In this document: positions 2,539 through 20,501 of the stretch, one piece after another
Position numbering within the stretch: position 1 is the first letter of the stretch
How the letters are laid out: each line of letters begins with the position of its first letter
DNA from: Oribacterium asaccharolyticum ACB7
Lineage (GTDB): Bacteria; Bacillota; Clostridia; Lachnospirales; Lachnospiraceae
Assembly (NCBI RefSeq): GCF_000238075.1
Contig: NZ_JH414504.1
Coordinates: 602,886 to 666,885 of the forward strand
Direction of reading: 5' to 3'
Length of the DNA: 64,000 nt
Made by a program: the position numbers and the translations under genes
Notes under the pieces: model-generated
The model's input: only the letters and a program-made list of their open reading frames with translations
What the model was told of the DNA's origin: nothing
The model's database searches: none

Positions 2539-3345
2539 TCATGGTTCTCTTCTCACAACTTGGCAATTATCCAAGTTCTTATGCAAGAAAGAGATCATCA
2601 TTAGTATGTCTACTGCTTCATCTTCATCTATAATCCAATTGATTTTTGGAGTGTGAGCAGTGACATTCCGTACCATACTGTTTATTCCTTTCAACATCAT
2701 GCAAAACCCATTTTGCTGATTCTTCTCACTTGCAGTTTGAAGATTATTCAATATCAAATAGGGCGAGGACGTTGAAAATGTCTTTTCAAATAAAGAAGAG
2801 CCGTCCTCTTCGAGGTTTGTCATTTGCCTTATTTGCTCCGTAAGACTTTTCGTTGCTTCGAGGACTGCATGAAAATAATTTTCTTTCAGAAGTTCCTCAT
2901 TGCAGTATTGAATTACACGGCTATGGACACCTCGTTGACGCAGTTTGGGCAGAATTCTCTGCACCCTTTTTTGAGCATCGCTTATAGTCTTTGCCACTGA
3001 CACCTTTTCAAACTCTCCATCGTCCCGATACTGTATTCCACTAAAAGTAAGGATGCCATTAAGCTCGGAGCGGTAATCCTCAAATTCATCCTGCCGTTGG
3101 ACATAGTTTACGGGATCCAATACTTCTTTAATAAAACGCAAGATCACATTTCCTGAATGATCCTTATCCTGACAAGCAGTAAAAGTATACTCCAATCTGC
3201 GCCACTTTGTAGACTCGCCACTGTTATCAGGGACAGCAAGACGGGTAAGTACACGAGAAATCTCACTTCCTGTCATCACACGATCACCAAGCAAATGACT
3301 TATTTGTGTTATTTGACTGTTATTAAAGATAACTACGTCAGCCAT
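2539..3345 (-). CDS. TIGR02391-family protein inserted inside pglX
   Basis: A 268-aa protein whose C-terminal half (NEELLKENYFHAVLEATKSL, GSSLFEKTFS, NGFCMMLKGINSMVRNVTAH) is characteristic of the TIGR02391 (Ymh) family, often found near restriction and abortive-infection genes; biochemical function is unknown to me. The N-terminus (ISHLLGDRVMTGSEISRVL...) looks like a small helical DNA-binding or adaptor domain, an inference from helix pattern only. Its ribosome binding site (GGAGG) overlaps the stop codon of the upstream pglX part (TTTAGGAGGCAAGT then ATG), so it is translationally coupled. It sits exactly where the PglX chain is interrupted, which suggests either a recent gene insertion or an integral partner of a split PglX. 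Confidence 0.75.
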   Translation of the reverse strand: MADVVIFNNSQITQISHLLGDRVMTGSEISRVLTRLAVPDNSGESTKWRRLEYTFTACQDKDHSGNVILRFIKEVLDPVNYVQRQDEFEDYRSELNGILTFSGIQYRDDGEFEKVSVAKTISDAQKRVQRILPKLRQRGVHSRVIQYCNEELLKENYFHAVLEATKSLTEQIRQMTNLEEDGSSLFEKTFSTSSPYLILNNLQTASEKNQQNGFCMMLKGINSMVRNVTAHTPKINWIIDEDEAVDILMMISFLHKNLDNCQVVRREP

Positions 3346-3354
3346 ACTTGCCTC

Positions 3355-6021
3355 CTAAACCAGCGGGTTCCGCTTGAAATCCAACGAGGTTTCATAGGAA
3401 TCCCAATCGCTCTTAGAAATGGTTTCACAGCCTAATACACATTTATCAATTTGAGGTAATTGGTCATCCACAATATGTACAGGCAGACATCCAATATCTC
3501 CAAGTTCACAATTAAGAGTTGGAGACACTATTTTTAATATACTCTCAGCAACACATGAGTTACAGAACGAGAGAATATAGGCTTCATATTTCTGAGGGAC
3601 AATTATGGTCATTCCGGCTTCTGATGATATTTGCCCATGCGGTTTGAATCGAAAAGATATTTTTGCGCTGGTAATTTTGGACCATGTAATTACTTCCTTG
3701 AAATAGTGATCTACGCCCTGGGGACGAGATCTTAGTTTTCCTTCATCGTCTACAAAATGCTTAATTTCAAATCCGTCATTTGCCCAGTTAACAATATATT
3801 CATCATTTCCACGCCATTTTCGATATGCACCGCCCTTATTATATGGGACCCACTTTCTTTTAAGTTCAATAACATCAGATGTTTTAGTTGCAGAGCCAAT
3901 AAAAGATTGAATATTGACTTCATACCAAAACCGCGTGAATCGATTGACATCTCCTGTGATTAACCCCTGTGCCAATGTTCCAATTTGAGAAATAGTTTTT
4001 CCATCAAAACAATCAAACAGTTCTCTGGACACCCAATATGCCACCGGGCTGCTCGGAATTTTGGCAAAGTTAGACTGGATGGCTACATAGCGATTCTTCC
4101 CCGCAAGGAACATATCTTCTTTCCCTTGTTGAGAGGTCGGATCAATCAGACGGCAATAGGTGCCTTTGTAGCCGTCAATATGGTTTGCGCAACGTACAAA
4201 AGCGGTAGTCTGCACCACTTCGCCGCCAATTTCTTCAAAGGCTCTTGCGCCGAGATGTGCCATGTTGACGGTTTCGGTGAGCATCATCTTTTCCCGCAAC
4301 TTTTCAAAGCTGGACAGGAACATCCAACTATGCTGGGTAATCATTGCCTGATAGCCATTGTCAGCAGTCATCTGACGGCAACGCTCAATAAACACAGCAA
4401 ACAAATCAGCTTTGCTGTCCGGATAATTCTTCTTTACAAAATTGTTGACCTTTGCGCTCAGATTGCTGATTCGGGCATACGGCGGATTCGTAACAGTTAT
4501 CCAATACTTCCGCGCCATCATCTCGCCAATATCAATGAGCCGGTTCAGCTGTTCGGCGGTATCTTCTACGCCAACGCTATCCATACTGATCTGACCGGCA
4601 GTATCTTCCGCTGCCACAAATCGGCGCAACAAATCCCAGTTGTAGCTCTCCACATTCAGGATGGAGCCGTATTCCTTGGCATCAGTAAAGTTGTCCAGCA
4701 AGCCTTCCAGCTGCATCTTGGCGGCGTTCTTCTCGATATCATCCATCTCCGCACCGAAAAATTTTAGGTGCGCACGATTGATGCCGTTGCTCTCCTGAAT
4801 GGTATAGACATGGCAGCTGTTCTCACCGTTTAAGATACGGCGGTTGTACTGCCGCGCCTTCATCATCACGGCGAAGTACGCCAGCTGATAGGCGCGGTCG
4901 TCAATATCTAGACCGTAGATATTGTGTTCCAGTATGCTCTTTGTAGCATCACGCTGGCTGTAACCTGCACTCTCGTAAATCTGCATCAACACATCAAAGG
5001 CGTATACGAGGATATGGCCAGAACCCATACATAGGTCGATCATCTTGATATCTTCCGGGTTAAGGACAGAATATTCCCGTCTAATCTCCGCAAGCTTCTT
5101 CTGCACTTCCGGCTCCTGCTCTGCCTCTTCCAGATAGTATTTCCAGTTTTCTTTCAGGCCGCAGTCCGGGTGTCCTTCCAACCACAGGCGCCCCAAGCTG
5201 TTCTCCACCATGTAGCGAACAATCCAGTTCGGGGTGAACAGCTGAGTTACGGCAGGGATTTCCTCTTTGGTAATCTTGCCGTTTTTGGCAAAGGCAGCGG
5301 CTTTCGGTTCCGTGTTGTAGTACTGGTAAAGCCAACCGATGATCTCCACCTGGCCACCTTTTTCAATATTGAAGTCATCCTCGTCAATATCGTGAACAAG
5401 CTTGTAGACAACACCTTCCTGATCAATAACTGAGAGATTCAGAAGTATTTCTGTATAATCCTGTGTCTTTTCAAACAGCGCCGGCAACAACGCATTTAGC
5501 GAATTACACTGCTTGATGAAAAGCATACGGAAAAGATCATCCAGCTGATTATCATTTTTCAACTGCATGATGATATGCTCTTCGTCTCCTGTAAAATCCA
5601 ACTCAGCATCAAAAGGATTTGTGACAATATCCGGTTCCAATTTCCCTGTATCCGAAGAAAGAACACGCATGTGGGAAGGAAGATAATCATTTACTTCCAT
5701 GAAACGGATCGCAATCAGGCGGTTGAACCAGGTATAGGCAACCTCTTCAATGATATATTTATAAGCAGTCTGATAGTCGGTATCCTTTTCCTTTTGTCGG
5801 ATCACCTCTACCAGTTTTCTTCTCTGCTTCACCGCATCTCCACTGATGGAATAAGGTTCTGCGGTTCCAATATCATAAAATTCAGTTGTACCTATGGACT
5901 GAGGCAGAGCATTTTTAATACCATCTGCCGTAATACCTATCAATCCTGCACGGTAACTGATATCTGCAATGAGCTTATTTCTAGCCCAGATCGCAAAGTT
6001 TTTGATGGATGATTTATTCAT
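3355..6021 (-). CDS. pglX: BREX type 1 adenine-specific methyltransferase PglX, N-terminal and catalytic part
   Basis: PglX modifies an adenine in the BREX recognition sequence so that host DNA is spared. This 888-aa ORF holds the whole catalytic core: the SAM-binding motif I DLCMGSGHILVYAFD at about residues 329-343, the LDIDD acidic motif near 371, and the N6-adenine catalytic motif NPPY at 512-515. The target recognition region follows (about 650-870). It then stops after DFKRNPLV, where a full PglX would continue into the coiled C-terminal region; that region is encoded separately by the ORF starting at 2460. The start has AAGGAGAG upstream, 27 bp after brxC. Everything expected in the catalytic part is intact, so the protein may be active if the C-terminal chain is supplied in trans. 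Confidence 0.93.
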   Translation of the reverse strand: MNKSSIKNFAIWARNKLIADISYRAGLIGITADGIKNALPQSIGTTEFYDIGTAEPYSISGDAVKQRRKLVEVIRQKEKDTDYQTAYKYIIEEVAYTWFNRLIAIRFMEVNDYLPSHMRVLSSDTGKLEPDIVTNPFDAELDFTGDEEHIIMQLKNDNQLDDLFRMLFIKQCNSLNALLPALFEKTQDYTEILLNLSVIDQEGVVYKLVHDIDEDDFNIEKGGQVEIIGWLYQYYNTEPKAAAFAKNGKITKEEIPAVTQLFTPNWIVRYMVENSLGRLWLEGHPDCGLKENWKYYLEEAEQEPEVQKKLAEIRREYSVLNPEDIKMIDLCMGSGHILVYAFDVLMQIYESAGYSQRDATKSILEHNIYGLDIDDRAYQLAYFAVMMKARQYNRRILNGENSCHVYTIQESNGINRAHLKFFGAEMDDIEKNAAKMQLEGLLDNFTDAKEYGSILNVESYNWDLLRRFVAAEDTAGQISMDSVGVEDTAEQLNRLIDIGEMMARKYWITVTNPPYARISNLSAKVNNFVKKNYPDSKADLFAVFIERCRQMTADNGYQAMITQHSWMFLSSFEKLREKMMLTETVNMAHLGARAFEEIGGEVVQTTAFVRCANHIDGYKGTYCRLIDPTSQQGKEDMFLAGKNRYVAIQSNFAKIPSSPVAYWVSRELFDCFDGKTISQIGTLAQGLITGDVNRFTRFWYEVNIQSFIGSATKTSDVIELKRKWVPYNKGGAYRKWRGNDEYIVNWANDGFEIKHFVDDEGKLRSRPQGVDHYFKEVITWSKITSAKISFRFKPHGQISSEAGMTIIVPQKYEAYILSFCNSCVAESILKIVSPTLNCELGDIGCLPVHIVDDQLPQIDKCVLGCETISKSDWDSYETSLDFKRNPLV

Positions 6022-9000: not shown

Positions 9001-9702
9001 AGGCGCCATTGCCTTCTCACACCAGTTTCTCGCAACTACTTCACTCATGAAGTCTATAGACACAAGTGCGTCAACTACACTGTCCTGAATAAAGTCAAAA
9101 TCCTGACGAGACTCTTCCCAAGGATCACCATATTCATCTTCAAAAGCAGCTTTGAACTCATCAAATATTCCCGCTTCTGCGAGTCTTCTTTCCAAGTCAG
9201 CAACGTGAGGCATGGAACCACAGAATCCCTGCATCTCATTGAACACTTTCAGGAATACATTAACAATAGCATCCTTGTTCTGCTTTCCATTGGATTCACT
9301 CTTGGAATCGATATTAAAAAGTACGACATCTGCAGGTGTTTCTGCCGCAAGTTTCATGTCAGCAAGAACCATAGGATCAATAATCTTTTTATCATCAATA
9401 AAATAATCCAGTGCTCTCTTATCTCCGACCTGCTTGTTATCCAAAAGGTAAGATAAAATCTTTAGGAAATGAGATTTACCACTTCCAAAGAAACCGGAAA
9501 TCCAGACACCCATCTTAGCTGTATTTCCATTAATTCCTTTTTTATATGAGGAGAAGAAATCAGCAAAATGCTTCTGCAATTCTCTTGTGACAACGTACTC
9601 TTCCAGCTCCTGTGCCACATTCGTTTCTTCCCCCTGACCAACAATGATGACTCCCTGAATCTCACGATCAATCTTCTTGGCAAACATATCTTTGATTTGC
9701 AT
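6049..9702 (-). CDS. brxC: BREX ATPase BrxC
   Basis: BrxC is the large P-loop ATPase required for BREX defence and methylation, thought to act on DNA with BrxB, PglX and PglZ. The 1217-aa length is normal for the family. Walker A is GFFGSGKS at residues 70-77 and Walker B is VVFLVDE at 259-265, in the known context MGVWISGFFGSGKSHFLKIL and VDEIGQYIGDD. The C-terminal third has long helices with a charged coiled segment (AERKQAEEIRRIEEEAKKQG). Start chosen at the ATG after AGGAGGAACGAAAA. It lies 92 bp downstream of brxB, with two hairpins in that gap. No frameshift is seen. Confidence 0.95.
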   Translation of the reverse strand: MQIKDMFAKKIDREIQGVIIVGQGEETNVAQELEEYVVTRELQKHFADFFSSYKKGINGNTAKMGVWISGFFGSGKSHFLKILSYLLDNKQVGDKRALDYFIDDKKIIDPMVLADMKLAAETPADVVLFNIDSKSESNGKQNKDAIVNVFLKVFNEMQGFCGSMPHVADLERRLAEAGIFDEFKAAFEDEYGDPWEESRQDFDFIQDSVVDALVSIDFMSEVVARNWCEKAMAPYTISIEDFAKRVKAYIDRQGKNRHVVFLVDEIGQYIGDDSKLMLNLQTVTEELGKECMGKAWVIVTSQQDIDSITKVKGNDFSKIQGRFDTRLSLSSANVDAVIKKRILDKTETAAQALRLLYEQKATIIKNLIVFNDGVEKKLYANENDFAEVYPFVPYQFNLLASVLTSIRTHGASGKHLSEGERSMLALFKESAAKLKNCEMGVIVPFHRFYDALENFLDHSHKGVISKAYENSYINPDNKEEDVFAINVLKTLFMIKYVLEIESNIDNITSLMIENIEDDRIELKDRVEEALKVLMRQMLVQKNGNLYVFLTDEEQEINNEIEKENVEMPEVITKIAEMIFEDIFTDKKYRYPAFNGRYSFSFNQVVDDRPYKSNQNFDIGLRILTPWYDGGMDDATLRMMSGQGKEVLLVLPNDDEFLTEMRVYLKIERFLRKNTSTQLAKYETIKEAKRVEMRERNANAKLYLTEGLKEATIYVNGDVARVAAKDVTSRINEAIGRLVQTVYHKLSYIDTAMGEAEIRKMMLTTNQLSLQLEGGTEANAHALDDVQGYIAMNSHNHMKTSMKSVKDRFMKAPYGFVEDDIDWLVARLFKRGDLAFTVNGASVNLNNKSEEEIIGYITKKAFVEKLLMEERVRVSEKDKKAVRDVMKEVFHTTVSAEDEDTIMKTFQRYASNMVNEMDKLEVYYKQYDYPGKKVLDSGKRLMQSVVQITSALEFFSYVSKMRESFLDLAEDYEPVKAFFNGEQQTIFMRALDMLAIYDDSKTYIVDADIEAVVAKMRGIVKQDKPYKNIPQLPELREQFMNAYTKVLEAEEAPVLDSIDQSRQRVLEVLNTKEYADQKKEHYQNQFVEIRQGAEHCNNVSSLRSFADKAEALKIRLMNEMDLLDRQIAERKQAEEIRRIEEEAKKQGADVTDTEVAHKVAEQKAQFKVHKTKNVSIKKMTGTSSWRLENTQDVDRYIEELRKTLVAQLDEDTIVNIEF

Positions 9703-9721
9703 TTTTCGTTCCTCCTATTTC

Positions 9722-9799
9722 CGCGGTAGCAACGAGCCAGATACGAATCTTGCTTTAGCATCTGGCGACTGCCGCGAGTAAAAATCTTTGATTTTTACT
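9722..9799 (-). promoter_or_regulatory. Double hairpin between brxB and brxC
   Basis: On the transcript sense strand two adjacent stem-loops fill the gap. The first (9777-9799) is a perfect 10-bp stem AGTAAAAATC/GATTTTTACT with a 3-nt loop that overlaps the brxB stop codon. The second (9722-9776) pairs CGCGGTAG-type outer arms and a perfect inner GCCAGAT/ATCTGGC stem, ending about 20 nt before the brxC start. No T-run follows either, so they are not ordinary terminators. They could tune relative expression of brxC, stabilise the mRNA, or be a small repeat element. Confidence 0.6.
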
Positions 9800-10373
9800 T
9801 CACGAGCTTAAACGCTCTGTAGTAGTTATCGTCTTTAATCTCATTAAAGAGAATCAGTTCCTGTTCGTTATATGTTCCCGGAAAGAACATGACCACCGGT
9901 GTCTTCACAAAAGCCTGATGTAAATTATTCAGTACTTTATGTGATCGTAGAATTGGATAGCACTTTCCAATTCCAGTTAAAAATACGATTGCATTATCTG
10001 GAGTATTATCTTTTATATACTGCATGATGATGCTGTCATCGTCATTAAACTTCATAGAATTACTTACCGCTTTTGTAATTCGTTCCAGTCCTTTTTTCTT
10101 CTCGAAATCAAAGCATTTCTCCATGTAATTCTTCTTTTCCAAGAAATCAATGATAATGTCATAAAGATCGAACACAACCAGTTCGAAATCATCTGAACTA
10201 TTCTTATTTTTATTTTTCAGATATTTGATTCGATCACGCACTTCCATTTCTTTTTCCGGCGGATAATCAAATACCCAGTAATTTACTTCATTTGCTCTTC
10301 CACTACTTTGTCGAAACTTTGGCTTTTTAATTTCTATCTCCATCTCATCAAGTCGTGCCGCTAAGTCTGCCAT
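9795..10373 (-). CDS. brxB: BREX protein BrxB (DUF1788)
   Basis: A 192-aa protein of the DUF1788/BrxB family, a core BREX component with no assigned enzymatic activity. Recognisable stretches are YWVFDYPPEKEMEVRDRI near the N-terminus, FELVVFDLYDIIIDFL in the middle, and AIVFLTGIGKCYPILRSHKVLNNL then VVMFFPGTYNEQELILF near the end. I place the start at the ATG at 10373 (MADLAARLDEME), which overlaps the brxA stop as TAATG and is preceded by AGGAGTG, rather than an upstream codon inside brxA. The overlap indicates translational coupling. Confidence 0.9.
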   Translation of the reverse strand: MADLAARLDEMEIEIKKPKFRQSSGRANEVNYWVFDYPPEKEMEVRDRIKYLKNKNKNSSDDFELVVFDLYDIIIDFLEKKNYMEKCFDFEKKKGLERITKAVSNSMKFNDDDSIIMQYIKDNTPDNAIVFLTGIGKCYPILRSHKVLNNLHQAFVKTPVVMFFPGTYNEQELILFNEIKDDNYYRAFKLVK

Positions 10374-10984
10374 TATCTCACTCCTATCAGTGCACTGACG
10401 CACGCTTCCATATCATGATCTTCAAGCCAGCGCTGCATCACCGGATCAAGAATTGGTTTCAATATTTTTCTTTCGTCCTTGCCCTTATCCGTTAGACCTG
10501 CTTCGAAAAGCATCGTCTTATAACAACGTCCCAAACGATTCAATGTTGCATCCGTCCATTTAGCAACTTTTTCGTCCTGAAGCTGTTTATCTTTGAAAAA
10601 AATGCGGATATCACTATCAGCAAAAGAATTGCTTCCAATGATCATTTTTTCTCGAACAACTTCATATACAAAATCAAAGAACAATGTGTCATACGCCATT
10701 GCCGCAACAAGAGCAAATAACTTCTGCGAAGCCACATCGCTCTCTAAAAATACCGAGCAAAAGCTTTCATCCAATGTACGAACTCTTCCTGCTACTGTGC
10801 TATAAATCTGTTCACTTCGAAGAGTTGTCGGTGCACCAAATATATTCTGTTCCTTGTTTAATTCTTTAATCTCATCTAAAGATTTCCCTTCTGCTAGGAG
10901 ACTCACCACCTTGCGAAACTCCATGAACCAGAAAGACATCTTCACGGCTCCTGCGCTGTAAGATTTTCTTTCCACACCTATCAC
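10373..10984 (-). CDS. brxA: BREX protein BrxA (DUF1819)
   Basis: A protein of about 200 aa matching the DUF1819/BrxA family, a small DNA-binding BREX component with an Nus-B like helical fold. Visible family features are the N-terminal SAGAVKMSFWFMEFRKVVSLL and the later RVRTLDESFCSVFLES and QKLFALVAAMAYDTLFFDFVYEVVREK. Start is ambiguous: a GTG at 10984 overlaps the Xre stop, and a second GTG at 10975 (MERKSYSAG) is better spaced from AGGAG (8 nt), so the true protein may be 200 rather than 203 aa. First structural gene of the operon after the regulator. Confidence 0.9.
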   Translation of the reverse strand: MIGVERKSYSAGAVKMSFWFMEFRKVVSLLAEGKSLDEIKELNKEQNIFGAPTTLRSEQIYSTVAGRVRTLDESFCSVFLESDVASQKLFALVAAMAYDTLFFDFVYEVVREKMIIGSNSFADSDIRIFFKDKQLQDEKVAKWTDATLNRLGRCYKTMLFEAGLTDKGKDERKILKPILDPVMQRWLEDHDMEACVSALIGVR

Positions 10985-11232
10985 TCTCCTTTTTGTTCTT
11001 CTGTTTGATCCTTATTATCATCTGGAATAGGATCTGGGATGATTTCCAATATATCTTCTACGTTACAGTGCATGTTAACACAAATTCTTTCAATCACATC
11101 CATTGTGACATTCTCACCATTAGCTAGCTTACTTACGGTAGCAGCACTAATTCCTGTGAGCTTTCGAAAATCCTTTTTCATCATGTCTTTGTCAATTAGT
11201 ATCTTAAATAATTTCTTGTAGGAAACAGCCAT
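10981..11232 (-). CDS. Xre-family regulator leading the BREX operon
   Basis: An 83-aa helix-turn-helix protein; the motif MMKKDFRKLTGISAATVSKL at about residues 17-36 with NGENVTMDVIERICVNMHCN after it is the Cro/CI fold. The acidic tail (PDPIPDDNKDQTEEQKGE) is disordered. It is the promoter-proximal gene and overlaps brxA by 4 bp, so it probably autoregulates the BREX operon. The upstream 210 bp is AT-rich and non-coding and contains TGCG/CGCA half sites at about 11253-11268 that could be an operator, which is speculative. Confidence 0.85.
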   Translation of the reverse strand: MAVSYKKLFKILIDKDMMKKDFRKLTGISAATVSKLANGENVTMDVIERICVNMHCNVEDILEIIPDPIPDDNKDQTEEQKGE

Positions 11233-11442
11233 TGTTTTTCACCTCTCTGGCACTACATTGCGTAGTTTTCGCATCGTAAAAAATAATACTATAAAATCGC
11301 TTATAAGAGAATCGTTTTTCGATAAATAATTATGCGCTCGCGATATTTGTTTTAGTAAAGAATATTTGCTCTATCATTTGTGATAATGGTTGAATTTTTG
11401 ATGGTACTTTACCATTTTTTGAAGCTTTTACACTCTTTTTCG

Positions 11443-12474
11443 CTACTTCGCAAGTAGAAAATCGCATAGGTAGCACCTATGCGATTTTCTACTTGTTGGG
11501 GCAATTCTCCAATCCGCCAGTTCATACGGGACAGCAGGAAGTTTGGCCAGTAATGGCAGTTCTTCGTCGCGGAAGATTTCATACCGGCTGAATTCTTCCA
11601 GTTTCTTCTTGATAGCAGCGTTTAATTCCGGTAGGGAAAAGAACTGCTCGTTCCTGAGTGCTACGGTTATCCATGTGGATATGTTGCCCACAATACCCTC
11701 AACATTGGGTTTATCCTTGGGTGAACGAATCCTTGCCGGGATGATTGCCGTATTATAATGCTCGGCCATCTCTTGGTACACAGCATTAATCCGCTGATCA
11801 TTCCAGTTTTTGTTGTATATGACGACGGTCTTGCAGTTATCAGGTACTAGGATTCGCGTGACACCGCCGAAACAGTCGTACACATGTATATGTGCAGTTA
11901 TCCACGAACCCTGTTTCTCGTCAAGGAATGCTTCAACATAAGGATAATGGCTGTACATAAGCACGCAGACAAAGATGAATACAGGTGTGATTTCGCCGGT
12001 ATCCGGGTCAATGATTGCTGCCGAATTCCCAATCCAGTCGACCTCTATCTGCTCACCGGGCTTGTGGCTTATATGCATGGTAGTGCGACGTTTCTGTTCA
12101 TCCTGTTGGATGTAATAGCAGAACTGAGAGTACATGAGAGGATTTTCACCATAAAGGCGTCATTCCTCCAGATATTCAGTCCAAAGTAGCTTCTTGTTTA
12201 CACCGTTTTTGAGCAATTCCTTACGAACATACTCATAATTCGGCATGCACCTCTTAGAGGCATCAACCTGTTCCCTCCTTTCTGGGAACAGGAGTCCTTC
12301 AAGAAAAGCGTCCGTATAAGACGCTGGAAACGGCCATGAGATATCTTTCACGCTGGCGGACTTAAAGACTTTGTTAACAGTTTTCTTTGAGACACCACAG
12401 CTAAATACAATCTTCTGCTGACTCAATTTCAGATCAGGTTGTGATAGCCGGATAATCTCACGGTACTTAGTCAT
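11443..12474 (-). pseudogene. IS21-family transposase IstA remnant (nonsense and truncation)
   Basis: Two ORFs on the same frame give one IstA. The 104-aa N-terminal piece (LKLSQQKIVFSCGVSKKTVNKVFK, a helix-turn-helix) ends at an in-frame TGA near 12151. The frame then continues as RLYGENPL, MYSQFCYYIQQDEQKR and the rve/DDE integrase core (KPGEQIEVDWIGN, FVCVLMYSHYPYVEAF, DNCKTVVIY, RSPKDKPNVEGIVGN). A typical protein has Cys at the stop position, so one base change explains the TGA. The C-terminus is lost: after LADWRI the frame reads through a 45-bp palindrome into unrelated sequence. No istB follows. The element is dead. Confidence 0.88.
11451..11495. repeat. 45-bp perfect palindrome (21-bp arms, 3-nt loop)
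   Basis: Left arm begins CAAGTAGAAAATCGCATAGG and the right arm is its exact reverse complement, separated by AGC. It lies exactly where the IstA frame loses homology. Neither strand has a T-run after it, so it is not a standard terminator. A repeat this perfect suggests a recent recombination product, an element end or a protein binding site. Confidence 0.9.
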
Positions 12475-12487
12475 GATAGTGACCTCC

Positions 12488-12528
12488 TATAATGAATTTA
12501 CGCTGTAAAAGCGCATGGATTCATTATA
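12488..12528 (-). promoter_or_regulatory. Hairpin before istA
   Basis: TATAATGAAT and ATTCATTATA form a perfect 10-bp stem around a 21-nt loop that holds a second small GCT/AGC pairing. It lies directly upstream of the istA ribosome binding site (GGAGGTCACT), so it may limit transposase translation, which is common for insertion sequences. It could also be the palindromic subterminal part of the IS end. Confidence 0.55.
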
Positions 12529-12555
12529 AGGTAGGAGATTCACGAGACGAAATGC

Positions 12556-12750
12556 CGGATTCCAGCTCTGGAATCACTGGTTCTGAGTTTCCGGAATGGC
12601 GGTTTCCATCATACCGGAATCGATGGTTTTCGTGACCGGACAGGCGGTGTAAAACCGTACGGAATACTCAGCATGGCTCCGCCACTCGGATTTGATGGCT
12701 CTGCGTATCGGATTCAGTGGCTCTCAAACGCCGGAATAATCAGGGCACAA
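12556..12750. repeat. Array of degenerate 22-23 bp repeats at the IS21 end
   Basis: About eight units begin CGGAAT or CGGATT and continue with a TGG-C/T-TCT-like core (examples CGGAATCGATGGTTTTCG, CGGATTTGATGGCTCTGC, CGGATTCAGTGGCTCTCA). Spacing is 22, 23 or 27 bp, about two helical turns. IS21-family ends are known to carry several transposase-binding repeats, so this is probably the end of the element. The array stops where IS66-like sequence begins. Confidence 0.7.
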
Positions 12751-12845
12751 TATTCATCTTCTTTTAGACCACTCTACTTACAATCTTTAATAATATCAGC
12801 CCATTGCCCTGTTCGCATCCTGCTTGTAGCAAGTTTTGTGTTCAT
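12736..12845 (-). pseudogene. IS66-family accessory TnpA remnant, interrupted by IS21
   Basis: After GGGGAGGAATTCAAG an ATG opens MNTKLATSRMRTGQWADIIK-DCK, then a TAG, then in the same frame SGLKEDEYCAL. This resembles the first residues of the small IS66 TnpA protein (MRTGQWA.II.DC..SGL...EYC). The similarity ends at the IS21 repeat array, so the IS21 appears to have inserted here. Short match, so moderate confidence. Confidence 0.55.
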
Positions 12846-12870
12846 CTTGAATTCCTCCCCGAGATAGTGT

Positions 12871-12904
12871 GCAAAGTGGAAAAAGTTTGTAAAGTGGAAA
12901 AAGT
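12871..12904. repeat. Two 16-bp direct repeats (period 18) with an adjoining inverted copy
   Basis: GCAAAGTGGAAAAAGT and GTAAAGTGGAAAAAGT lie 18 bp apart. A partial reverse complement (AACTTTTCACACTTT) follows at 12911-12925, so the second copy can fold back on it. It sits directly upstream of the IS66 TnpA start and may be its operator or end sequence. Confidence 0.6.
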
Positions 12905-13067
12905 GCATTCAACTTTTCACACTTTTCACGATTATCTTAATTTTTGTGGAGAGAAAAAAGATGACAGCTTATTTACTATTTACGTTCTAATGAAAGAGTA
13001 TTCTTCTACAAAATCCATTATGAACGAGCTTTATCAAATACGAAAGAACTATGGAATTTACATAGGT

Positions 13068-13108
13068 AAGGAGATGGAGAGATAGATAACCATCTCCTTA
13101 TTATTTTT
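13068..13108 (+). terminator. Rho-independent terminator-like hairpin (+ strand)
   Basis: AAGGAGATGG / CCATCTCCTT, 10-bp stem with a 12-nt loop, followed by ATTATTTTT. The T-rich side is on the plus strand, facing the end of the minus-strand TIR gene, so it would stop transcription entering the defence operon from the left. Confidence 0.7.
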
Positions 13109-13685
13109 AATGTCTTTCTAATGTAGCTCCATTTAACCAGTTCCTCAGAGATACATATCTACTACTATCGCCTTGATCTATAACCCAAAACTCATAAATA
13201 TTTTTATTTCTTACCTTTTCATATTCTATGAATGGATAAAGCCCTAAATATTCGAGACCTTTAAATGTAACCGTTTCTTCCATTACTGGTAATATACATG
13301 ATCTTCCATTTAGCATACCATCTGCTAATCCCAACTCCCATGGACACCATTTTGAATTAGTGATATTTCCAGTAGCGATATAAGATAAGCCTTTACAATC
13401 AGATATCCTATTTTTAATAACTTTAGCCGTTTTAGGAGATACATTATTTCTATCTAAAGTTTTATCATTTATCCAATCTACATAAACTGAATAATCTGCA
13501 TTATTAAATAAATCAATTAGAGTTAATATCAGTTTTTTATCAAAAAAACTATGCGATATAAACAAGTCATATGATTCTTTTTGGGAAAAAACTGCATAAT
13601 TTTCATTTAAAATCCTTGTTTCCGATGCATTACTAATATCTCTTTTTACAGATTCTCTGCTTAAAAATTCATTTGTTAAAATCAT
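13107..13685 (-). CDS. Second TIR-domain protein of the TIR/caspase operon
   Basis: 192 aa. A 38-residue N-terminal extension is followed by a TIR fold: SYDLFISHSFFDKKLILTLI (strand A) at 38-57, DYSVYVDW at 64-71, CKGLSYIATGNITNSKWCPW-ELGLADG at 97-123. The last block holds the conserved W-E pair (W116, E117) where the NADase glutamate of bacterial TIRs lies. Third gene of the operon, 11 bp after the caspase gene, with an AGGGG ribosome binding site. It may generate a signal nucleotide, sense infection, or be an effector; known TIR-caspase systems need only one TIR protein, so its role is open. Pfam family uncertain; the TIR call rests on motif order. Confidence 0.75.
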   Translation of the reverse strand: MILTNEFLSRESVKRDISNASETRILNENYAVFSQKESYDLFISHSFFDKKLILTLIDLFNNADYSVYVDWINDKTLDRNNVSPKTAKVIKNRISDCKGLSYIATGNITNSKWCPWELGLADGMLNGRSCILPVMEETVTFKGLEYLGLYPFIEYEKVRNKNIYEFWVIDQGDSSRYVSLRNWLNGATLERH

Positions 13686-13696
13686 ATATATATCCC

Positions 13697-14674
13697 CTAA
13701 AATCTTTTATCTTTTGACAATTTCCAATAATGCAATCCTAAAGGAGTCAACCTACATGACTTACTATTCATTGCTGCAAAATACATATGTTCCTCATCGA
13801 CTGGTTCAATCAAACCAACACTCTCATATAGTTGTAGTTCTTTAAACTTAGTAATATTTACATCTTTTGCATATGGTTCTTTAATTTCAATTTGATACTC
13901 CGGATTATTAGTAAATTCAAAAGATGGATCTAAAGGATATTCACTATCAGGATTTTGAAAATAATCACTTAACTTCCTTAAAACTTCAATAGGAACTTTA
14001 GGTTTTATTTTTCTAATTGGAAGAAATCTGGATATATTTGTTTTAAAAAGAGGTCGTTGTTCCCATGCTCCCAACGATTGATCAACAAACGAATATAAAC
14101 TTGCTGGTGTGATATTTCCGCCAACATCAGCGGCTCCACCCAACAATCCCTGAATTAACAATTCAGTAAATACTCCATGGCCAGTAATTCCATCTTCTAC
14201 AGCGTATTGATCTCTACTACTGGCAGTCATAATTGTCACACCTTCGCCTAATACTGTTTCATTTGATGAAATGACTCCCAACTCTCCAAATTTGCCAGAA
14301 AAACAGCAATCCAATATAACAACTTTGTTTTTACTTTTTGACTGTTTTAATAAAGCCAAGATATCCAACATTGATACTCCCATATCTCTGACTTTAAAAT
14401 CAGGTGTAACTATCTTCCCCGTAACTTCATCTGTTCCATGACCTGAAAAGTAAAACAATGAGATATCAGAATCACCTTCACAAAAAAGAGCATTTAGCAG
14501 ATCCAAAAGTTCATCCTTTGTCTGTATATTTGGAGCAAACTTAACTTCAAAATTCGGAGAGCCATCTCCGTTTGTTTCAAGTAAGTTTTTTATTTCTTCC
14601 GCATCATTTACACATCCATTTAAAGGGCAACCCGGATAATCATCAATACCAACAACAAGTGCTTTTCTACTCAT
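13697..14674 (-). CDS. Caspase-like cysteine protease (peptidase C14 fold)
   Basis: 325 aa. Residues 1-215 form a caspase/metacaspase domain: N-terminal KALVVGIDDYPGCPLNGCVNDA, catalytic histidine in FYFSGHG (H79), and catalytic cysteine in VVILDCCFSGKFG (C124 by alignment to DxCxSG). Both catalytic residues are present, so the enzyme should be active. A flexible linker (IRKIKPKVPIE) leads to an unassigned C-terminal domain at about 235-325, a likely ligand-sensing part. It lies between two TIR genes, 18 bp after the first. In type IV Thoeris a TIR protein makes a cyclic ADP-ribose isomer that switches on such a caspase, which then degrades cell proteins. That role is inferred here. Confidence 0.88.
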   Translation of the reverse strand: MSRKALVVGIDDYPGCPLNGCVNDAEEIKNLLETNGDGSPNFEVKFAPNIQTKDELLDLLNALFCEGDSDISLFYFSGHGTDEVTGKIVTPDFKVRDMGVSMLDILALLKQSKSKNKVVILDCCFSGKFGELGVISSNETVLGEGVTIMTASSRDQYAVEDGITGHGVFTELLIQGLLGGAADVGGNITPASLYSFVDQSLGAWEQRPLFKTNISRFLPIRKIKPKVPIEVLRKLSDYFQNPDSEYPLDPSFEFTNNPEYQIEIKEPYAKDVNITKFKELQLYESVGLIEPVDEEHMYFAAMNSKSCRLTPLGLHYWKLSKDKRF

Positions 14675-14692
14675 CCTAAAACCTCTCTTTCG

Positions 14693-15070
14693 TTATATAT
14701 TATCAATCCACTTTGAAATATTTGGCCATGTCCAGTCCATCAGTCTAATATATCCGCATTCACTTGGAATGGTAACTCCAGAGTGACTATCATTTCCGTA
14801 TATTCCAACTATTGGAATATTTTCATCTTTTGCACACTTCATTTCCCAAATTTGTCCATCTGCATTTTTTGTGTTCTTTGTGACTATTGATATCACACCA
14901 TCACAGCCTTTTATTCTTGTCCTACAATTTGTTTTCCACTGTGAATCCCATGGTTTTTTAACTGACATATCCACAAATTCAAAGGGGCTATTTTCATTTT
15001 TCGCTTGTCCTTTTAATAAATCTCTTAACCGTTCATCTTCAATTGCAAAGCTAATAAAAATTCTTTTCAT
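14693..15070 (-). CDS. thsB: ThsB-like TIR protein (MTH538/ThsB TIR family)
   Basis: 125 aa, a stand-alone short TIR of the ThsB type: RIFISFAIEDERLRDLLKGQ at 3-22, then KKPWDSQWKTNCRTRIKGCDGVISIVTKNT typical of ThsB proteins, and DGQIWEMKCAKDENIPIVGIY with the catalytic glutamate in the WE pair (E76). ThsB proteins sense phage and convert NAD+ into a cyclic ADP-ribose type signal. It is the first gene of the three-gene operon, with a strong AGGAGG ribosome binding site, and the gene order TIR then caspase fits type IV Thoeris. The family call is firm; the type assignment depends on the neighbour. Confidence 0.85.
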   Translation of the reverse strand: MKRIFISFAIEDERLRDLLKGQAKNENSPFEFVDMSVKKPWDSQWKTNCRTRIKGCDGVISIVTKNTKNADGQIWEMKCAKDENIPIVGIYGNDSHSGVTIPSECGYIRLMDWTWPNISKWIDNI

Positions 15071-15147
15071 ATTTATTCGACCTCCTTGTACTATTAAGTT
15101 GTAGCTGTTCTTTACCTGTTCTTGGTAATCAGCTACTATTGTTATCT

Positions 15148-15213
15148 GATGCTGTGGATTGGTTCCTATCTCCTACCGCGCGACGGTTTTTGTAAGGCTC
15201 CAACCACAGCATC
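15148..15213 (+). ncRNA. Structured element 5' of an IS110 transposase, candidate bridge RNA segment
   Basis: GATGCTGTGG pairs perfectly with CCACAGCATC, continued inward by TTGG/CCAA past one bulged A, enclosing a 37-nt internal loop that contains ACCG-CGCGA-CGGT. It lies about 120-190 bp upstream of an IS110-family ORF. IS110 elements encode their bridge RNA in the non-coding left end, as stem-loops with large internal loops. The transposase here is broken, so this is probably a relic. Confidence 0.45.
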
Positions 15214-15335
15214 TTTGTTACATTGTTAATCAGTTAGATACCGCATGAAGGTTTATGTAGAACGAGGATACAATCAGCAAAGAGCCCTGTGGGTCGATAA
15301 CAGCATCAAACACTTATTACAGGAGGATTTACTAA

Positions 15336-15922
15336 ATGATTTACGTTGGAATTGATGTTGCTAAGGATAAGCATGACTGTTGTATACTTGGCCCAGATAC
15401 CGAAGAACTTTTCCAAGTCTTTACGATACGGAACAATAGCGATGGCTATGGAGAATTATTCCACAAGATTGAGTCAGTCTCAAGGGACAAATCTCAAATA
15501 AAATAGGGCTCGAGGCTACCGGTCACTATTCCTACAACATTCTGGGATCACTTCTTGACCATGGCTACCACACCTTTGTCATCAATCCATTACATACAAA
15601 TCTTTACAGAAAAAGTCAAAGCCTTAGAAAGACGAAAATGGATAAAGTTGATGCCCGCTCCATTGCTGAAATGCTTGTGACTGATAAGACACTCAAGCCC
15701 TATACAGATACATCCTACCACAGCGAGGAGCTGAAGTCATTAACTCGTTATCGTTTTGAGCTTGTCAAAGAACGTGCGAAACTGAAAACTTCAGTATCTA
15801 GGCTTGTAAACATCCTGTTCCCGGAACTTGAGTCTCTTGTTCCGACTCTGCACATGAACTCGGTATACCGTCTTCTTCTAGAACTGCCAAGAGCATATTT
15901 TATGAATGTATACATAAATTGA
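15336..15922 (+). pseudogene. IS110-family transposase remnant (frameshifted and 3' truncated)
   Basis: Begins MIYVGIDVAKDKHDC after AGGAGGATTTACTAA, the DEDD RuvC-like start of IS110 transposases. A one-base frame change at about 15500 (AAATAAAATAGGG) puts a TAG in frame; the second frame continues IGLEATGHYSYNILGSLL, then NPLHTNLYRKSQSLRKTKMDKVDA and the helical segment to LLLELP. Homology ends near 15893, where the sequence joins unrelated DNA, so the C-terminal serine domain is missing. Non-functional. Confidence 0.88.
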
Positions 15923-16366
15923 AAAACTTTCCTTATGAACGTCCATTCCTACATAAATTGTGTTATGATTCATCTGATGACTCCCCCTTTGTATGCGATA
16001 ATTCCTGTTTTTGTTTTGCAGCTACATTGTATAATTAAATCTACGAAGTTTATAAAGTGGAGGTTATCATAAATAGTCTAGCATTTATCTTAAAGATACC
16101 CATTTTTAAGCCATTTAGTTTACAAAAAATATTCTACATTCTCTTAAAATAGATATTTACCTCTATTTGGGACTATTTACCAAGAAATTCACCCTATTTC
16201 AACACAATTACCCGAAATTCTCAAATCGTTATTTTCTACACTTTAGAACTTCTAGTACGAATTAATTATATGCTTTTTAATTATTTCGTACTGTCCATGA
16301 ACTACTCCCTCCAGCTATACTTATTCATACACACATACCACTATCACAGATAATTTTCAATGCTTT
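15923..16366. other. Intergenic region, no gene seen
   Basis: AT-rich spacer between the IS110 remnant and the end of the TIR-NTPase gene. An 11-bp repeat TACATAAATTG occurs at about 15911 and 15952, near the point where the transposase is cut. No coding pattern, RNA gene or clear terminator is visible. Confidence 0.5.
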
Positions 16367-18826
16367 TTAAGGCTTTAATATTGCATCTACCTTTTTTGAT
16401 AATACACTTGAGTTTAAACGTATGTTATTATCTTGTAGGCTATTTAACAGTGTGTCTACACTTGTTTTATCCCCCTCGTATGCAGCTAACAAAATTTGAA
16501 ATCTAATCTTTGCACGCTCTTTTACATAAGTATCTCGCATGTCTGTTGACTCAAGCATTCCTATAGTTTTTTTCATTTCGCCAATATCATGAGCTTTTTC
16601 ACATATATCGAATCTATCTTGGATTGCGTAAATTTTGTGATTACTCTCCGTTATTGCTGTATCTATTAGCGCCAATGCCATATCAATATCTCTTTCACAA
16701 TACATAGAAACCAATGCTTTGCATCTAGAATATAATTCTTTTCCCAAATCAGTTAACGACTTAGACATGCTTAAAAGTATTTCGTCTATCATATCTTTAC
16801 TATCTGAATTGCTTCCGCTTTTTAATATACACAATAAGTATGCATGCGCATGATATATATTTTTTCTATCATTCGTATAATTTTCTCTTGCTAGTATAAT
16901 CGCCTCATCATACTGCTCAAGATTAATCAGTAATTGCACCTTTTCCCTTTTTGCTTTTGAAAAATTCTTTCTTAATTTAAGACTCTGCTCTATTTTTTCA
17001 AGAGCTTTTTCATACTGTCCCTGTCTTCGATAATAAAATCCTAGAAGAAAATGATGATCTGCTCCATCTATTTCTTGCACTTCTTTCAAAAATCTTTTAT
17101 CTCGTTTTTGTGCTAATGACATGCATAAAAAGAACCTGATTTCAAATACAAGTTTATCTTCAATATTTTTGCAGCCTTTTAAGATTGTATCGGCAAATTC
17201 TATTACTCTCGCATAATCCCTATCTTTTTCATACAACTCAACCATCGTTTTTAAATACTGTGACGGAAGCATATACGCACTATTATACACTCCCCGCTTA
17301 ACCTGCTCTTTAATTTTAAATAGATAATCAGGCATATCCAGCTCAGCATATTCATATTTATCTAAAAAGTTAGTAATGTAGTAATTTAAAGCTTTTTTAT
17401 ACTTTACTCCCAATTTATAGCCTGCTCTTGTAATATATTCATGCACTGCATATGCAATTTTAATATATTCCCTGTTCACTCCATAAAACTCAATAATACC
17501 ATCGACATATAGCTTATTTATTATATTTGAAACAAAATCATCATCCTTTACTATACTTTGAATTGTTCGGTATGTAACCATATCCAGCTCCACTAAGAGC
17601 GTAATAAATTCCTTATATTCTTCATTATCTTCATACGGTTTCATTAATTGAAGTATTATTTCAGAATCATAGTTCTTTATTTCAGAGGCATAATCATATG
17701 TTTTTTCTGCACCATATTGTTGTATGAGAGAAGCAGCAAACTTAACCTGTGTAGGAAATCCATTCATTAAATTTACATAATTCTTAAAATCTTCTCTATT
17801 TAAACTCACTCCTTTTTGTTCAAGAAACTTTTGCAAAAGACCTGCAGATTCTGTTTTATCCATTGGCGATATCTTAATTATATACAATTCATCACAAGTT
17901 ACGGGTAATTTTATGTTGAATTTTGATGCCACACCAAGTACAGTCCTTGTCTTTTTTTGCATCTTTTTAAGTGCTTCAATAAACCATTCGCAAACAATTC
18001 CTTCGTGCGTTACAATACACCCCTTATCCTCAATCAGGACAACTTCTTTATTATCAGATATAGAATCTAAGATTTTTGACAATGCTTCTATTTTCTCATC
18101 TATAGATTGATTCATAAAATTTGAAATATCAATTTCATCGCTAAATCCTAAATCTCTTAAAAGTACAATAAGGTTTTCAATACCATCATACATTCCAACA
18201 TTAATTTTTGATGGGCACGTTTGTCCATCTATGATATTGGCCTTTGCAAAACAATGCTTAAGAAAGCTTTTCCGGCCAATTTGAATTATGCCCGAAGCAA
18301 AATATGCAACTACCGTATCTTTGTCATAATCATACTTCCGTTCTTCAAAATCTTGAATCTGAGTATTTCTTCCAACAAAAACTTCATCTCTGTAAACCAT
18401 TTCCGGTGTCTGTTCCCAAGTAATCTCAATTAATCTTTTTCTAATTAACTGAACAGCTTTGGACGGTTTAGATATATACCTTAAATTATATTCCTTAAGC
18501 CAATCTGGAATTTCTTCATCCTTACAATCTAAATTTACATCAATTACTATTGGATAAATACGTTTTATGATATGGCTTTCTCTAGCTAAGAATAATTCCT
18601 TTTGAACCCATTCCGAATTCAATGAAGCTCTAGACAAGAAAATCACAAACAAATCAGTTTTATTCAAACTTTTTTTGATTTCTTCTAGTGTTTTTATTCC
18701 CGCTTCGGATGTATGCTCATCATAATGAATACTATGCTCATCGAATTCTTTTTCCAATTTTTCTGCAACAATTCTTACATATCGCTCTTTATCTTTGCTG
18801 CTATGCGATAAAAAAATGTTAGCCAT
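16367..18826 (-). CDS. TIR - P-loop NTPase - TPR protein (bacterial NLR/STAND-like sensor)
   Basis: 819 aa with three parts. TIR domain at 1-130: ANIFLSHSSKDKERYVRIVAEKL, then LFVIFLSRASLNSEWVQKEL (glutamate E77). A nucleotide-binding domain begins at VFVGRNTQIQDFEE (about 149) with an unusual P-loop GIIQIGRKS at 179-187 (one residue longer than the standard GxxxxGKS) and an acidic VVLIED strand near 270. From about 560 to the end, helical TPR-like repeats (HHFLLGFYYRRQGQYEKALEKIEQSLKL and similar). This architecture is that of phage-sensing STAND/NLR-like proteins in which sensor repeats trigger a TIR NADase. It stands alone, with GGAGGAATAACTG before the start. Defence role inferred. Confidence 0.85.
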   Translation of the reverse strand: MANIFLSHSSKDKERYVRIVAEKLEKEFDEHSIHYDEHTSEAGIKTLEEIKKSLNKTDLFVIFLSRASLNSEWVQKELFLARESHIIKRIYPIVIDVNLDCKDEEIPDWLKEYNLRYISKPSKAVQLIRKRLIEITWEQTPEMVYRDEVFVGRNTQIQDFEERKYDYDKDTVVAYFASGIIQIGRKSFLKHCFAKANIIDGQTCPSKINVGMYDGIENLIVLLRDLGFSDEIDISNFMNQSIDEKIEALSKILDSISDNKEVVLIEDKGCIVTHEGIVCEWFIEALKKMQKKTRTVLGVASKFNIKLPVTCDELYIIKISPMDKTESAGLLQKFLEQKGVSLNREDFKNYVNLMNGFPTQVKFAASLIQQYGAEKTYDYASEIKNYDSEIILQLMKPYEDNEEYKEFITLLVELDMVTYRTIQSIVKDDDFVSNIINKLYVDGIIEFYGVNREYIKIAYAVHEYITRAGYKLGVKYKKALNYYITNFLDKYEYAELDMPDYLFKIKEQVKRGVYNSAYMLPSQYLKTMVELYEKDRDYARVIEFADTILKGCKNIEDKLVFEIRFFLCMSLAQKRDKRFLKEVQEIDGADHHFLLGFYYRRQGQYEKALEKIEQSLKLRKNFSKAKREKVQLLINLEQYDEAIILARENYTNDRKNIYHAHAYLLCILKSGSNSDSKDMIDEILLSMSKSLTDLGKELYSRCKALVSMYCERDIDMALALIDTAITESNHKIYAIQDRFDICEKAHDIGEMKKTIGMLESTDMRDTYVKERAKIRFQILLAAYEGDKTSVDTLLNSLQDNNIRLNSSVLSKKVDAILKP

Positions 18827-19449
18827 CAGTTATTCCTCCCATATACTATATTGTCCGCCTTACACTACCATATTTAATATAATCTGTTCTATAGCCTTTC
18901 AACCGCCCATCTGTATATTAAAATCCATAAATATCTTAATAACACGTCACAAATCCGTGAAAGGAGATAATGGGAGTATAGAGAACTTTCATCATGCTAT
19001 TATGAAAGATAAACTCGGCAATCTGATTCAAAAAGTTATCTATCGACTATCAAGGCAGGTACTCTCCGGATATTCTAAAATAACATCTTAGCTACATCCA
19101 TATCAAAACCAAAAGACTTCATACTTCCTTTTTTATCGTAAATACTTAGCGAAAAGAACCTTTTAATACCTCTATATCTTTCTAAAACAGAATAGTCTAG
19201 GACTTAGGATTCTTAATTACCTCATTATCCTGATCCTCACAGATATAGTATTCCTGTCTTTAGTTTATAATTCTATAGATAATATATTTAATTTATTTAA
19301 TAATTTTATTCCATCTCGATAATTACCATATCTAATTTGTTTCTCTTTTCCTATATCAGTATTTCTTTAGCTCCTATTTATAGTTGTTTTTATACCCATT
19401 TTTGGTAGTTTTTGAATTATTTAGTATCATATCAGTATCAAGAGTGATA
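18827..19449. other. Intergenic region holding the left end of the guaA element
   Basis: AT-rich. No convincing gene. A short open stretch at about 18960-19091 (plus strand, GSIENFHHAIMKDKLGNLIQ) looks like a fragment but I cannot assign it. The 12-bp attachment repeat lies at 19307. Confidence 0.5.
19307..19318 (+). repeat. Putative attachment repeat, left (TTATTCCATCTC)
   Basis: Exact 12-bp match, same orientation, to the last bases of guaA at 37757-37768. A given 12-mer is not expected by chance in 64 kb, and guaA 3' ends are known integration sites. Confidence 0.7.
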
Positions 19450-19779
19450 CTATAATTTTTTTAGAAGCGAGCCATTTTCAATCGTTTCAAATACATTGAT
19501 TGTACTCTCATCTTCATTTGAACACAATATAGTTGAAAGAATTGGTAATAATTCCGGCTTGTCTTTTACGCAATTATCAATTACTGCACAAACAGCAATA
19601 TATTGAATTGAGCTCATCTTATTCTTTTGCGTTTCAAGATTATTTATCGTTTGCCTTGTCAACCCAATTAAATCTCCGAATTCCTGCACACCAAATCCTA
19701 ACACTTGTCTTATTTGTTTTAAGGACGCTTGCATTGCATCAACCATCCTTTGTCTTAATTGATAATAGAAATCTATCAT
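19450..19779 (-). CDS. Small Xre-family transcriptional regulator
   Basis: 109 aa. A helix-turn-helix at about residues 18-50 (KQIRQVLGFGVQEFGDLIGLTRQTINNLE) is followed by a short helical tail and a Ser/Glu-rich end. First gene inside the left end of the guaA element, minus strand, with AGGTGGTGTAAGA before the ATG. Target unknown. It may control the neighbouring recombinase module or be a remnant regulator. Confidence 0.75.
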   Translation of the reverse strand: MIDFYYQLRQRMVDAMQASLKQIRQVLGFGVQEFGDLIGLTRQTINNLETQKNKMSSIQYIAVCAVIDNCVKDKPELLPILSTILCSNEDESTINVFETIENGSLLKKL

Positions 19780-19916
19780 TCTTACACCACCTTTCTTGCA
19801 ATTAGAATATCATGCTTTTTATGTCAATATTTTTTACACAAGTAAAATGAATAATGTTATTTTCAACAGAGTTGTATAAACTATCTATTATAATTTGTTT
19901 TTTTCTATCGAAATCC

Positions 19917-20501
19917 CTATAATTCCCCTCCCACTCCATTCTTGAATGTGACGATCATGTTTTTGTCCTTATCTATAATGATATAGACGTCCATGCTGCC
20001 CCACATCCCAGCATCGAATTCTGTGATAGACTCTCCGTATTTTTGAGGATGTCAATGAAAATGCCCAGCTTTTTACAATGAGCCCACTTTTTCTCAATAT
20101 CTTCCACTATGCATCGTACCCTGATTTGACCCTTTTGTATCGTTCCTCCAAGTCATCATAACATTTCGGATAATCCTCTTAATCTATACGATTCTCACAT
20201 TCTACACAACACAGCCTTGGATCACTTCCACCACACTTTTCATCTCGCTACGAAGTTTGTCGTGTTCTTCCTTAAAGGTTATGACATCAATAACTGTCTG
20301 CTGTATAAGCTGAATGTTTTCTATGATTTCATCTTTCTCGGTAATGAGGATATTCATTACCGAGATAAAAACAACGGTGATTTCTTCTTCCGTAACATGA
20401 GGAGTTTCACATTTTATGTTCTCATCAAATTTATAGTCGAAGTTGTAAATGCTCCTGCGGTACTTGTCATTGAAGTACCACAGGAAAAAATCATAAATCA
20501 C
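19917..20501 (-). pseudogene. C-terminal remnant of a second large serine recombinase
   Basis: The open part (99 aa, to 20202) shows NDKYRRSIYNFDYKF then KCETPHVTEEEITVVFISVMNILI, the zinc-ribbon/C-terminal part of large serine recombinases. Beyond its stop the homology resumes in other frames: VEDIEKKWAHCKKLGIFIDILK, then after a one-base shift SITEFDAGMW and NMIVTFKNGV to the TAG at 19917. At least two frame changes and no N-terminal catalytic domain, so it is dead. It lies beside the intact recombinase and may mark an older element at this site. Confidence 0.75.

Follow-up and report, generated by a model that had tools for sequence, protein, structure and literature searches.

The 64,000-nucleotide stretch of the Oribacterium asaccharolyticum ACB7 genome analysed here (the window) carries, on its minus strand, a compact three-gene operon in which a gene for a small TIR protein (TIR1) is followed by one for a caspase-like protease and then by a second TIR gene (TIR2). 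Judged by its gene content, the operon is probably a caspase-based Thoeris system. We assign a probability of about one half to the interpretation that it is a mobile anti-phage cassette, a type IV-like caspase Thoeris whose sensor module comprises two TIRs, in which TIR2 acts as a swappable co-sensor of the ThsB1 type for the TIR1 cyclase. Support for a co-sensor comes from the recurrence of TIR2 beside caspases, always together with another TIR, from its kinship with the ThsB1-type protein of a plasmid-borne system, from its faster protein change and from its modularity. If TIR2 has this role, sensor, cyclase and effector become readable as separate modules, and the triggers of such systems should be predictable from the sensor, not the effector.

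The first-pass annotation of this DNA had proposed a TIR/caspase/TIR operon with intact catalytic residues, and both points hold. The open reading frames lie where they had been placed (Table 1), with gaps of only 18 bp (TIR1 to caspase) and 11 bp (caspase to TIR2); all three frames are intact and the ribosome-binding site is kept. Among each query and its best 120 listed relatives, the set used for all conservation counts, the caspase residues H79 and C124 are retained in 121/121 proteins, and the predicted catalytic glutamates of TIR1 (E76) and TIR2 (E117) are each retained in 120 of the 121. The trio is not a chance arrangement, because the same three genes occur at 94% DNA identity in two other genomes, those of Negativicoccus massiliensis (L001) and Bulleidia extructa (L002).

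Type IV Thoeris, reportedly the subject of work by Rousset and others in 2025, is said to consist of a TIR protein and a caspase-like protease. The window operon shares this core, as had been suggested: a ThsB-type TIR gene adjoins a caspase-like protease gene, and the catalytic residues of both are kept. TIR1 matches Pfam ThsB_TIR (PF08937) with 30 bits (cut-off 21.2) and, more weakly, the PADLOC ThsB profile (6e-08), while the protease matches Peptidase_C14 (PF00656) with 78 bits (cut-off 21.4; 1.2e-21). Two-gene forms of the system are known to us from plasmids of Listeria, Enterococcus, Proteus, Pseudomonas, Bacillus, Providencia and Citrobacter, found among 98 plasmid records with a caspase match, of which seven were examined besides those with TIR2. 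What distinguishes the window operon, in this comparison by layout and published description, is its third gene, a TIR of the ThsB1 family. In the published type IV model, N7-cyclic ADP-ribose (N7-cADPR) switches on the caspase (as cited in PMC12847820).

The third gene had been described as a TIR with a different fold pattern. That it is a TIR is borne out by sequence comparison; a different fold is not, and the similarity to TIR1 is remote. With Pfam TIR_2 (PF13676) TIR2 scores 25.5 bits, just below the cut-off of 28. It matches the PADLOC ThsB1 profile (PDLC00422) at 1e-49 over residues 14-188 and the solved TIR protein 8btn_B, which we take to be a Thoeris ThsB, at 2e-37 over residues 3-185. 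These three matches rule out a non-TIR protein, and the nearly full-length profile match together with the retained glutamate places TIR2 in the ThsB1 family. Since this family is already catalogued and Thoeris systems are known to carry a single ThsB gene or several (PMC11204291; PMC7272460; PMC12578639), the novelty of a second TIR had been overstated: the three-component claim stands as regards recurrence (see below), and the two-TIR caspase cassette is a variant of a principle familiar from multi-ThsB type I systems. A search of titles and the beginnings of abstracts returned no description of a two-TIR caspase Thoeris, which may already be in print, and no paper that explains phage detection by caspase-type Thoeris; PMC13232231 cites a 2026 paper on a phage sponge directed against TIR-caspase signalling.

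Another close parallel is the type I system with paired ThsB proteins, known from S. aureus (ThsA-ThsB1-ThsB2) and S. equinis (PMC12578639), which likewise joins two dissimilar TIRs to one effector. In the S. aureus system the major capsid protein is bound by ThsB1, which brings in the cyclase ThsB2; it is the ThsB2 glutamate that does the work, and the glutamate also present in ThsB1 is dispensable (PMC12578639). A closely similar system on a Mammaliicoccus lentus plasmid (L090) encodes TIR proteins of 364 and 202 aa and a SIR2 protein. It was typed from residue numbers given in PMC12578639: F260 and E336 of its 364-aa protein match those published for S. equinis ThsB1, not the F242/E318 of S. 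aureus ThsB1, and F6 and E81 of its 202-aa protein match those published for S. aureus ThsB2. The TIR domain of the 364-aa protein and TIR2 are homologous (42% identity over 81 aa, 3e-15). The window operon differs in that its effector is a caspase and not a SIR2-SLOG protein (ThsA), none of which was found among its three genes with Pfam or PADLOC, and in that TIR1 is shorter and has only its Pfam family in common with the ThsB2-like protein. By analogy, the S. aureus and S. equinis cases likely bracket the roles of TIR2 and TIR1.

Recurrence of the third gene beside TIR-caspase pairs, on which the three-component claim had been made to depend, was found in 8 of 66 caspase loci and on one plasmid. 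The loci were collected by scanning species genomes with a caspase alignment, led by two short peptide patterns, so that the sample is biased; viral contigs scanned in the same way gave one locus. One of 67 loci (L066), a partial match with no caspase open reading frame model, was dropped. TIR genes were counted by profile searches, to which Pfam-checked candidates and one gene from a targeted check were added. Within 2.3 kb and on the same strand, 36/66 loci have one TIR gene and 25/66 have two or three; none was found in five (L036, L057, L058, L062 and L065, with partial caspases in L057 and L062). A TIR2-family gene (at least 100 bits) adjoins the caspase in eight loci from two phyla, in six gene orders: L001, L002 and L045 in Bacillota, and L037, L043, L050, L053 and L063 in Bacteroidota. 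Another TIR is present in all eight (in L045 it is a ThsB_TIR), whereas a TIR1-type gene is the sole TIR found in 21/39 loci, a contrast that favours the co-sensor (Fisher p 0.006, with no correction for kinship). An Enterococcus faecalis plasmid carries TIR2 beside a TIR-caspase pair in the same gene order as the window. Whole-genome draws yielded TIR2 relatives in 1/398 genomes (E 1e-25) and 2/391 (E 1e-18, without the L002 genome). The contrast of 8/66 with 3/789 (Fisher p 1e-7) is only indicative, because the former is a tally of genes lying no more than 2.3 kb from a caspase and the latter one of whole genomes, from two phyla and at two E-value limits. On a quick tree of 72 caspases, which omits six loci (three duplicates, one truncated and two near-copies), the TIR2 label needs eight changes, six of them forced, and is weakly clustered (24/500 shuffles as low).

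Other small genes also accompany caspases in this collection. A protein of 156-190 aa with the motif FLSRP near its start is encoded upstream of caspase genes (L004 6993-7556, also L005-L008; L046 7480-7950); it matches no Pfam family of note, shows a link to TIRs only in iterated phmmer searches, and is a possible third component of caspase Thoeris. The streptococcal upstream gene (187-190 aa) is linked to TIR only through iterated phmmer and not through Pfam, and was not counted as a TIR. Directly 3' of the TIR-caspase pair, small hypothetical genes occur on plasmids of B. subtilis (L095 4957-5445), P. aeruginosa (L094 4999-5280) and C. braakii (L097 4991-5260), the first of which matched no family in Pfam.

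The TIR2 family is by no means confined to caspases. Nineteen further TIR2 loci, none with a caspase, come from plasmids (13 records examined out of 84 that match TIR2), from viral contigs and from the drawn genomes (L072, a copy of L071, was excluded), and the neighbours of TIR2 in them would be the effectors. These include SIR2-SLOG proteins (L071, L077/L100, L083 and L089 by profile; L087 and L090 by annotation), TPR-S proteins (L070, L079 and L088 by Pfam; L081 and L086 by annotation) and, further upstream, patatin-like proteins (L073 and L085 by Pfam; L080, which has a SLOG gene in addition, and L084 by annotation). Small membrane proteins recognised by eye adjoin TIR2 in L069, L082, L098/L101 and L099/L102; Pfam was silent for those of L069 and L082 and gave a weak match for L098. 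Another TIR gene is present too in L069, L101/L098 and L102, and these loci (L069 5992-7641, L082 3935-4941, L101 3272-4910, L102 4071-6116) resemble a Thoeris-type system whose effector has not yet been named. Over the whole set, another TIR gene occurs in 18/19 loci, a count that for L086 and L088 uses annotation and a weak profile match, for L073 a Pfam match just below cut-off, and for L083 and part of the others PADLOC. The TPR-S loci (L079, L081, L086, L088 and L070), found on plasmids of Pediococcus and Acinetobacter and on a viral contig, combine TIR genes, a TPR-S protein and TIR2, and so repeat the multi-TIR layout of the caspase cassette with another presumed effector.

Because its family also adjoins other Thoeris effectors, TIR2 resembles a plug-in sensor of infection. 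In a tree built from 26 TIR2 proteins, several branches of which are long or open, the ten caspase-linked members require three label changes, at least two of them forced by well-supported branches. A wider proposal, which we put forward tentatively, is that ThsB1-type TIRs are general plug-in phage receptors moved among Thoeris-like systems with different effectors (SIR2, caspase, TPR-S, patatin, small membrane proteins) and presumably different signals, detection (TIR2) and signal making (TIR1) being separable and exchangeable, in a division of labour like that between receptors and signalling enzymes in animal immunity. The presence of the family beside effectors thought to need different ADP-ribose signals means that it can reveal whether the sensor or the partner TIR sets the signal. 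Such company also bears on two other roles that the first-pass annotation had raised. As a second effector, TIR2 would act as an NADase and deplete NAD+ in parallel with protein cleavage by the caspase; its predicted NADase glutamate is kept, but nothing else favours this role, and a family found beside several kinds of dedicated effector belongs on the sensor side, which makes an effector unlikely. Least probable of all is that TIR2 modifies, converts or removes the TIR1 signal so as to tune or shut off the response: another TIR is nearly always at hand, but no precedent was found in the literature examined, and single-TIR operons manage without TIR2.

The cassette has been transferred between genomes. 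Its identity to L001 is 93.9% over 2101 bp and to L002 94.2% over 2068 bp, and among blastn matches longer than 200 bp none lies outside it. It is flanked by IS21 pieces on one side and IS110 pieces on the other. Within the cassette, the TIR2 end appears to have been swapped independently of the rest, because the sites at which two of the three sequences agree are split: in TIR2 the window groups with L001 (42:8), whereas in TIR1 and the caspase it groups with L002 (54:17; p 2.6e-10 for the contrast), and the TIR2 of the E. faecalis plasmid is 57.5% identical to that of the window as against 41.1% for the caspase. A patch in the 3' part of the window caspase gene also follows L001.

TIR2 also changes faster as a protein. 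Between the window and L001, nonsynonymous (dN) and synonymous (dS) divergence are 0.047 and 0.083 for TIR2, 0.009 and 0.277 for the caspase, and 0.010 and 0.252 for TIR1; the corresponding nonsynonymous to synonymous counts, 21:9 in TIR2 against 10:62, differ at p 6e-8, and the excess recurs between L001 and L002 (p 0.03). Since genes within a single operon differ in history here, identities were compared as well, in eight overlapping pairs in which the accessory gene is TIR2 (four), another TIR (two) or the streptococcal upstream gene (two). The accessory gene is less alike than the caspase in 8/8 pairs and less alike than TIR1 in 7/8. Rapid change fits a phage-facing part.

A number of observations weigh against a dedicated co-sensor. 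The rate evidence is uneven: the excess between the window and L002 is not significant (p 0.21), in the pair L004-L007 the accessory gene, not proven to be a TIR, has a dN/dS below that of the caspase, in L005-L007 its identity exceeds that of TIR1, and the faster change of TIR2 may reflect relaxed constraint. The likeness to type I is incomplete, as TIR2 has no counterpart to the long N-terminal part of the 364-aa protein of L090 (the aligned TIR begins at residue 39 in TIR2 and at 257 in that protein) and BLASTP of TIR1 against the ThsB2-like protein of L090 gave nothing significant, both being PF08937. The second TIR of L050 was found only through a targeted Pfam check, so that the figure of 8/8 reflects uneven scrutiny, and in L082 no other TIR was seen within about 4 kb. 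TIR1-caspase pairs that lack TIR2 are common. When ten single-TIR1 loci were checked with Pfam, one neighbour per locus, no TIR was revealed, five of the ten proteins matching no Pfam family.

Both TIRs, moreover, keep a catalytic glutamate that a pure receptor would not need. These retained residues and the many TIR1-only operons speak for the main rival, in which TIR1 and TIR2 are parallel sensors, each detecting its own phage cue and each making a caspase-activating signal, with a wider phage range as the result. There is published precedent: the ThsB proteins of Bacillus are thought to act independently (PMC11204291), the second ThsB of B. cereus is dispensable (PMC7272460), and S. equinis ThsB1 is itself a cyclase that needs its glutamate and alone sufficed for defence against one phage (PMC12578639). 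Independent sensors should, however, occur alone more often than is seen, TIR2 never being the sole TIR beside a caspase (8/8) and only once among the 19 other loci; we therefore regard parallel sensing as possible but somewhat doubtful.

It is also uncertain whether the operon is expressed in this genome, and native control may be lost, because a broken IS110-type element has replaced the upstream sequence present in L001 and L002. In both of those genomes a small gene ends just before TIR1, and that of L001 encodes a helix-turn-helix (HTH) protein by Pfam. The operon could on this account be a decayed or passenger cassette, possibly unexpressed, and promoter-like sites in the region (11, against a shuffle mean of 16.1) do not exceed those of shuffled sequence. 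Three intact frames, a retained ribosome-binding site, retained catalytic residues and a dN/dS below 1 in all three genes make decay improbable, if the least so of the minor alternatives.

With TIR2 as co-sensor, a plausible course of events can be outlined. During infection TIR2 would recognise a phage component; TIR1, once engaged, would use NAD+ to make a signal of the cyclic ADP-ribose type, which judging by the published type IV system is probably N7-cADPR; the caspase would bind this signal, for which its conserved C-terminal domain is the likeliest site; and the protease would then cut cell proteins, bringing phage growth to a halt. The compactness of the cassette leaves the three roles open to single-gene removals.

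For the C-terminal domain, a possible signal sensor, the first-pass annotation had recognised no family, and the searches agree: Pfam, PADLOC and the other libraries searched gave no match, nor did the caspase-family profile, run against solved structures, produce any covering this part, its matches being metacaspases and MALT1. An AlphaFold2 model built from close relatives is poor here, whereas a wider alignment gave a confident model, in which the order of helices and strands has the look of a winged helix. Conserved residues of this domain, M297, Y298, K305, Y316 and W317 among them, are candidates for contact with the signal. We claim no new fold, because the VIA-align list covers only residues 1-224 and the Foldseek lists are headed by caspases. 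Gammaproteobacterial caspases that adjoin a TIR are 42-52% identical to that of the window. On a Spirochaetaceae contig (L047 632-3326), two caspases of this family stand side by side with one TIR1-type gene.

Table 1. Features of the operon and its surroundings (positions in the window)
Feature	Position	Strand	Description
TIR1	14693..15070	-	ThsB-type TIR (PF08937), 125 aa; predicted NADase/cyclase Glu E76; first gene
Caspase-like protease	13697..14674	-	325 aa; predicted caspase fold 1-222 (H79, C124); conserved C-terminal domain 226-325
TIR2	13107..13685	-	ThsB1-family TIR, 192 aa; Glu E117; proposed co-sensor
Inverted repeat, 10 bp	13068-13077 / 13090-13099		directly downstream of TIR2; similar in L001 and L002 (sequence and alignment)
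Shared cassette	12987..15087	-	shared with L001 (13020-15087 with L002), blastn matches >200 bp; flanks not shared
Broken IS110-type element	15088..15922	+	directly upstream of TIR1, in place of small HTH gene; two pieces match DEDD_Tnp_IS110 (PF01548)
Non-coding end of the IS110-type element	15088-15336		inverted repeat
IS21-type transposase pieces	11443..12474	-	downstream of operon
TIR-NLR-type gene	16367-18826		beyond the IS110 remnant
BREX pglX, N part	3355-6021	-	model 1-869 of 1174
BREX pglX, C part	1453-2460	-	model 877-1165
PD-Lambda-3_B-like gene	2539-3345	-	between the pglX halves

The inverted repeat downstream of TIR2 was not reported by a terminator scan, and an Rfam search of positions 9500-20500 returned no matches, including at the non-coding end of the broken IS110-type element. 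We take this end to be, possibly, the bridge-RNA region of the element. Near the operon lies a TIR-NLR-type defence gene (819 aa; PADLOC 4.5e-141), which together with BREX genes makes this a defence island. The BREX pglX gene is split in two, and BrxA, BrxB and BrxC are encoded upstream of it.

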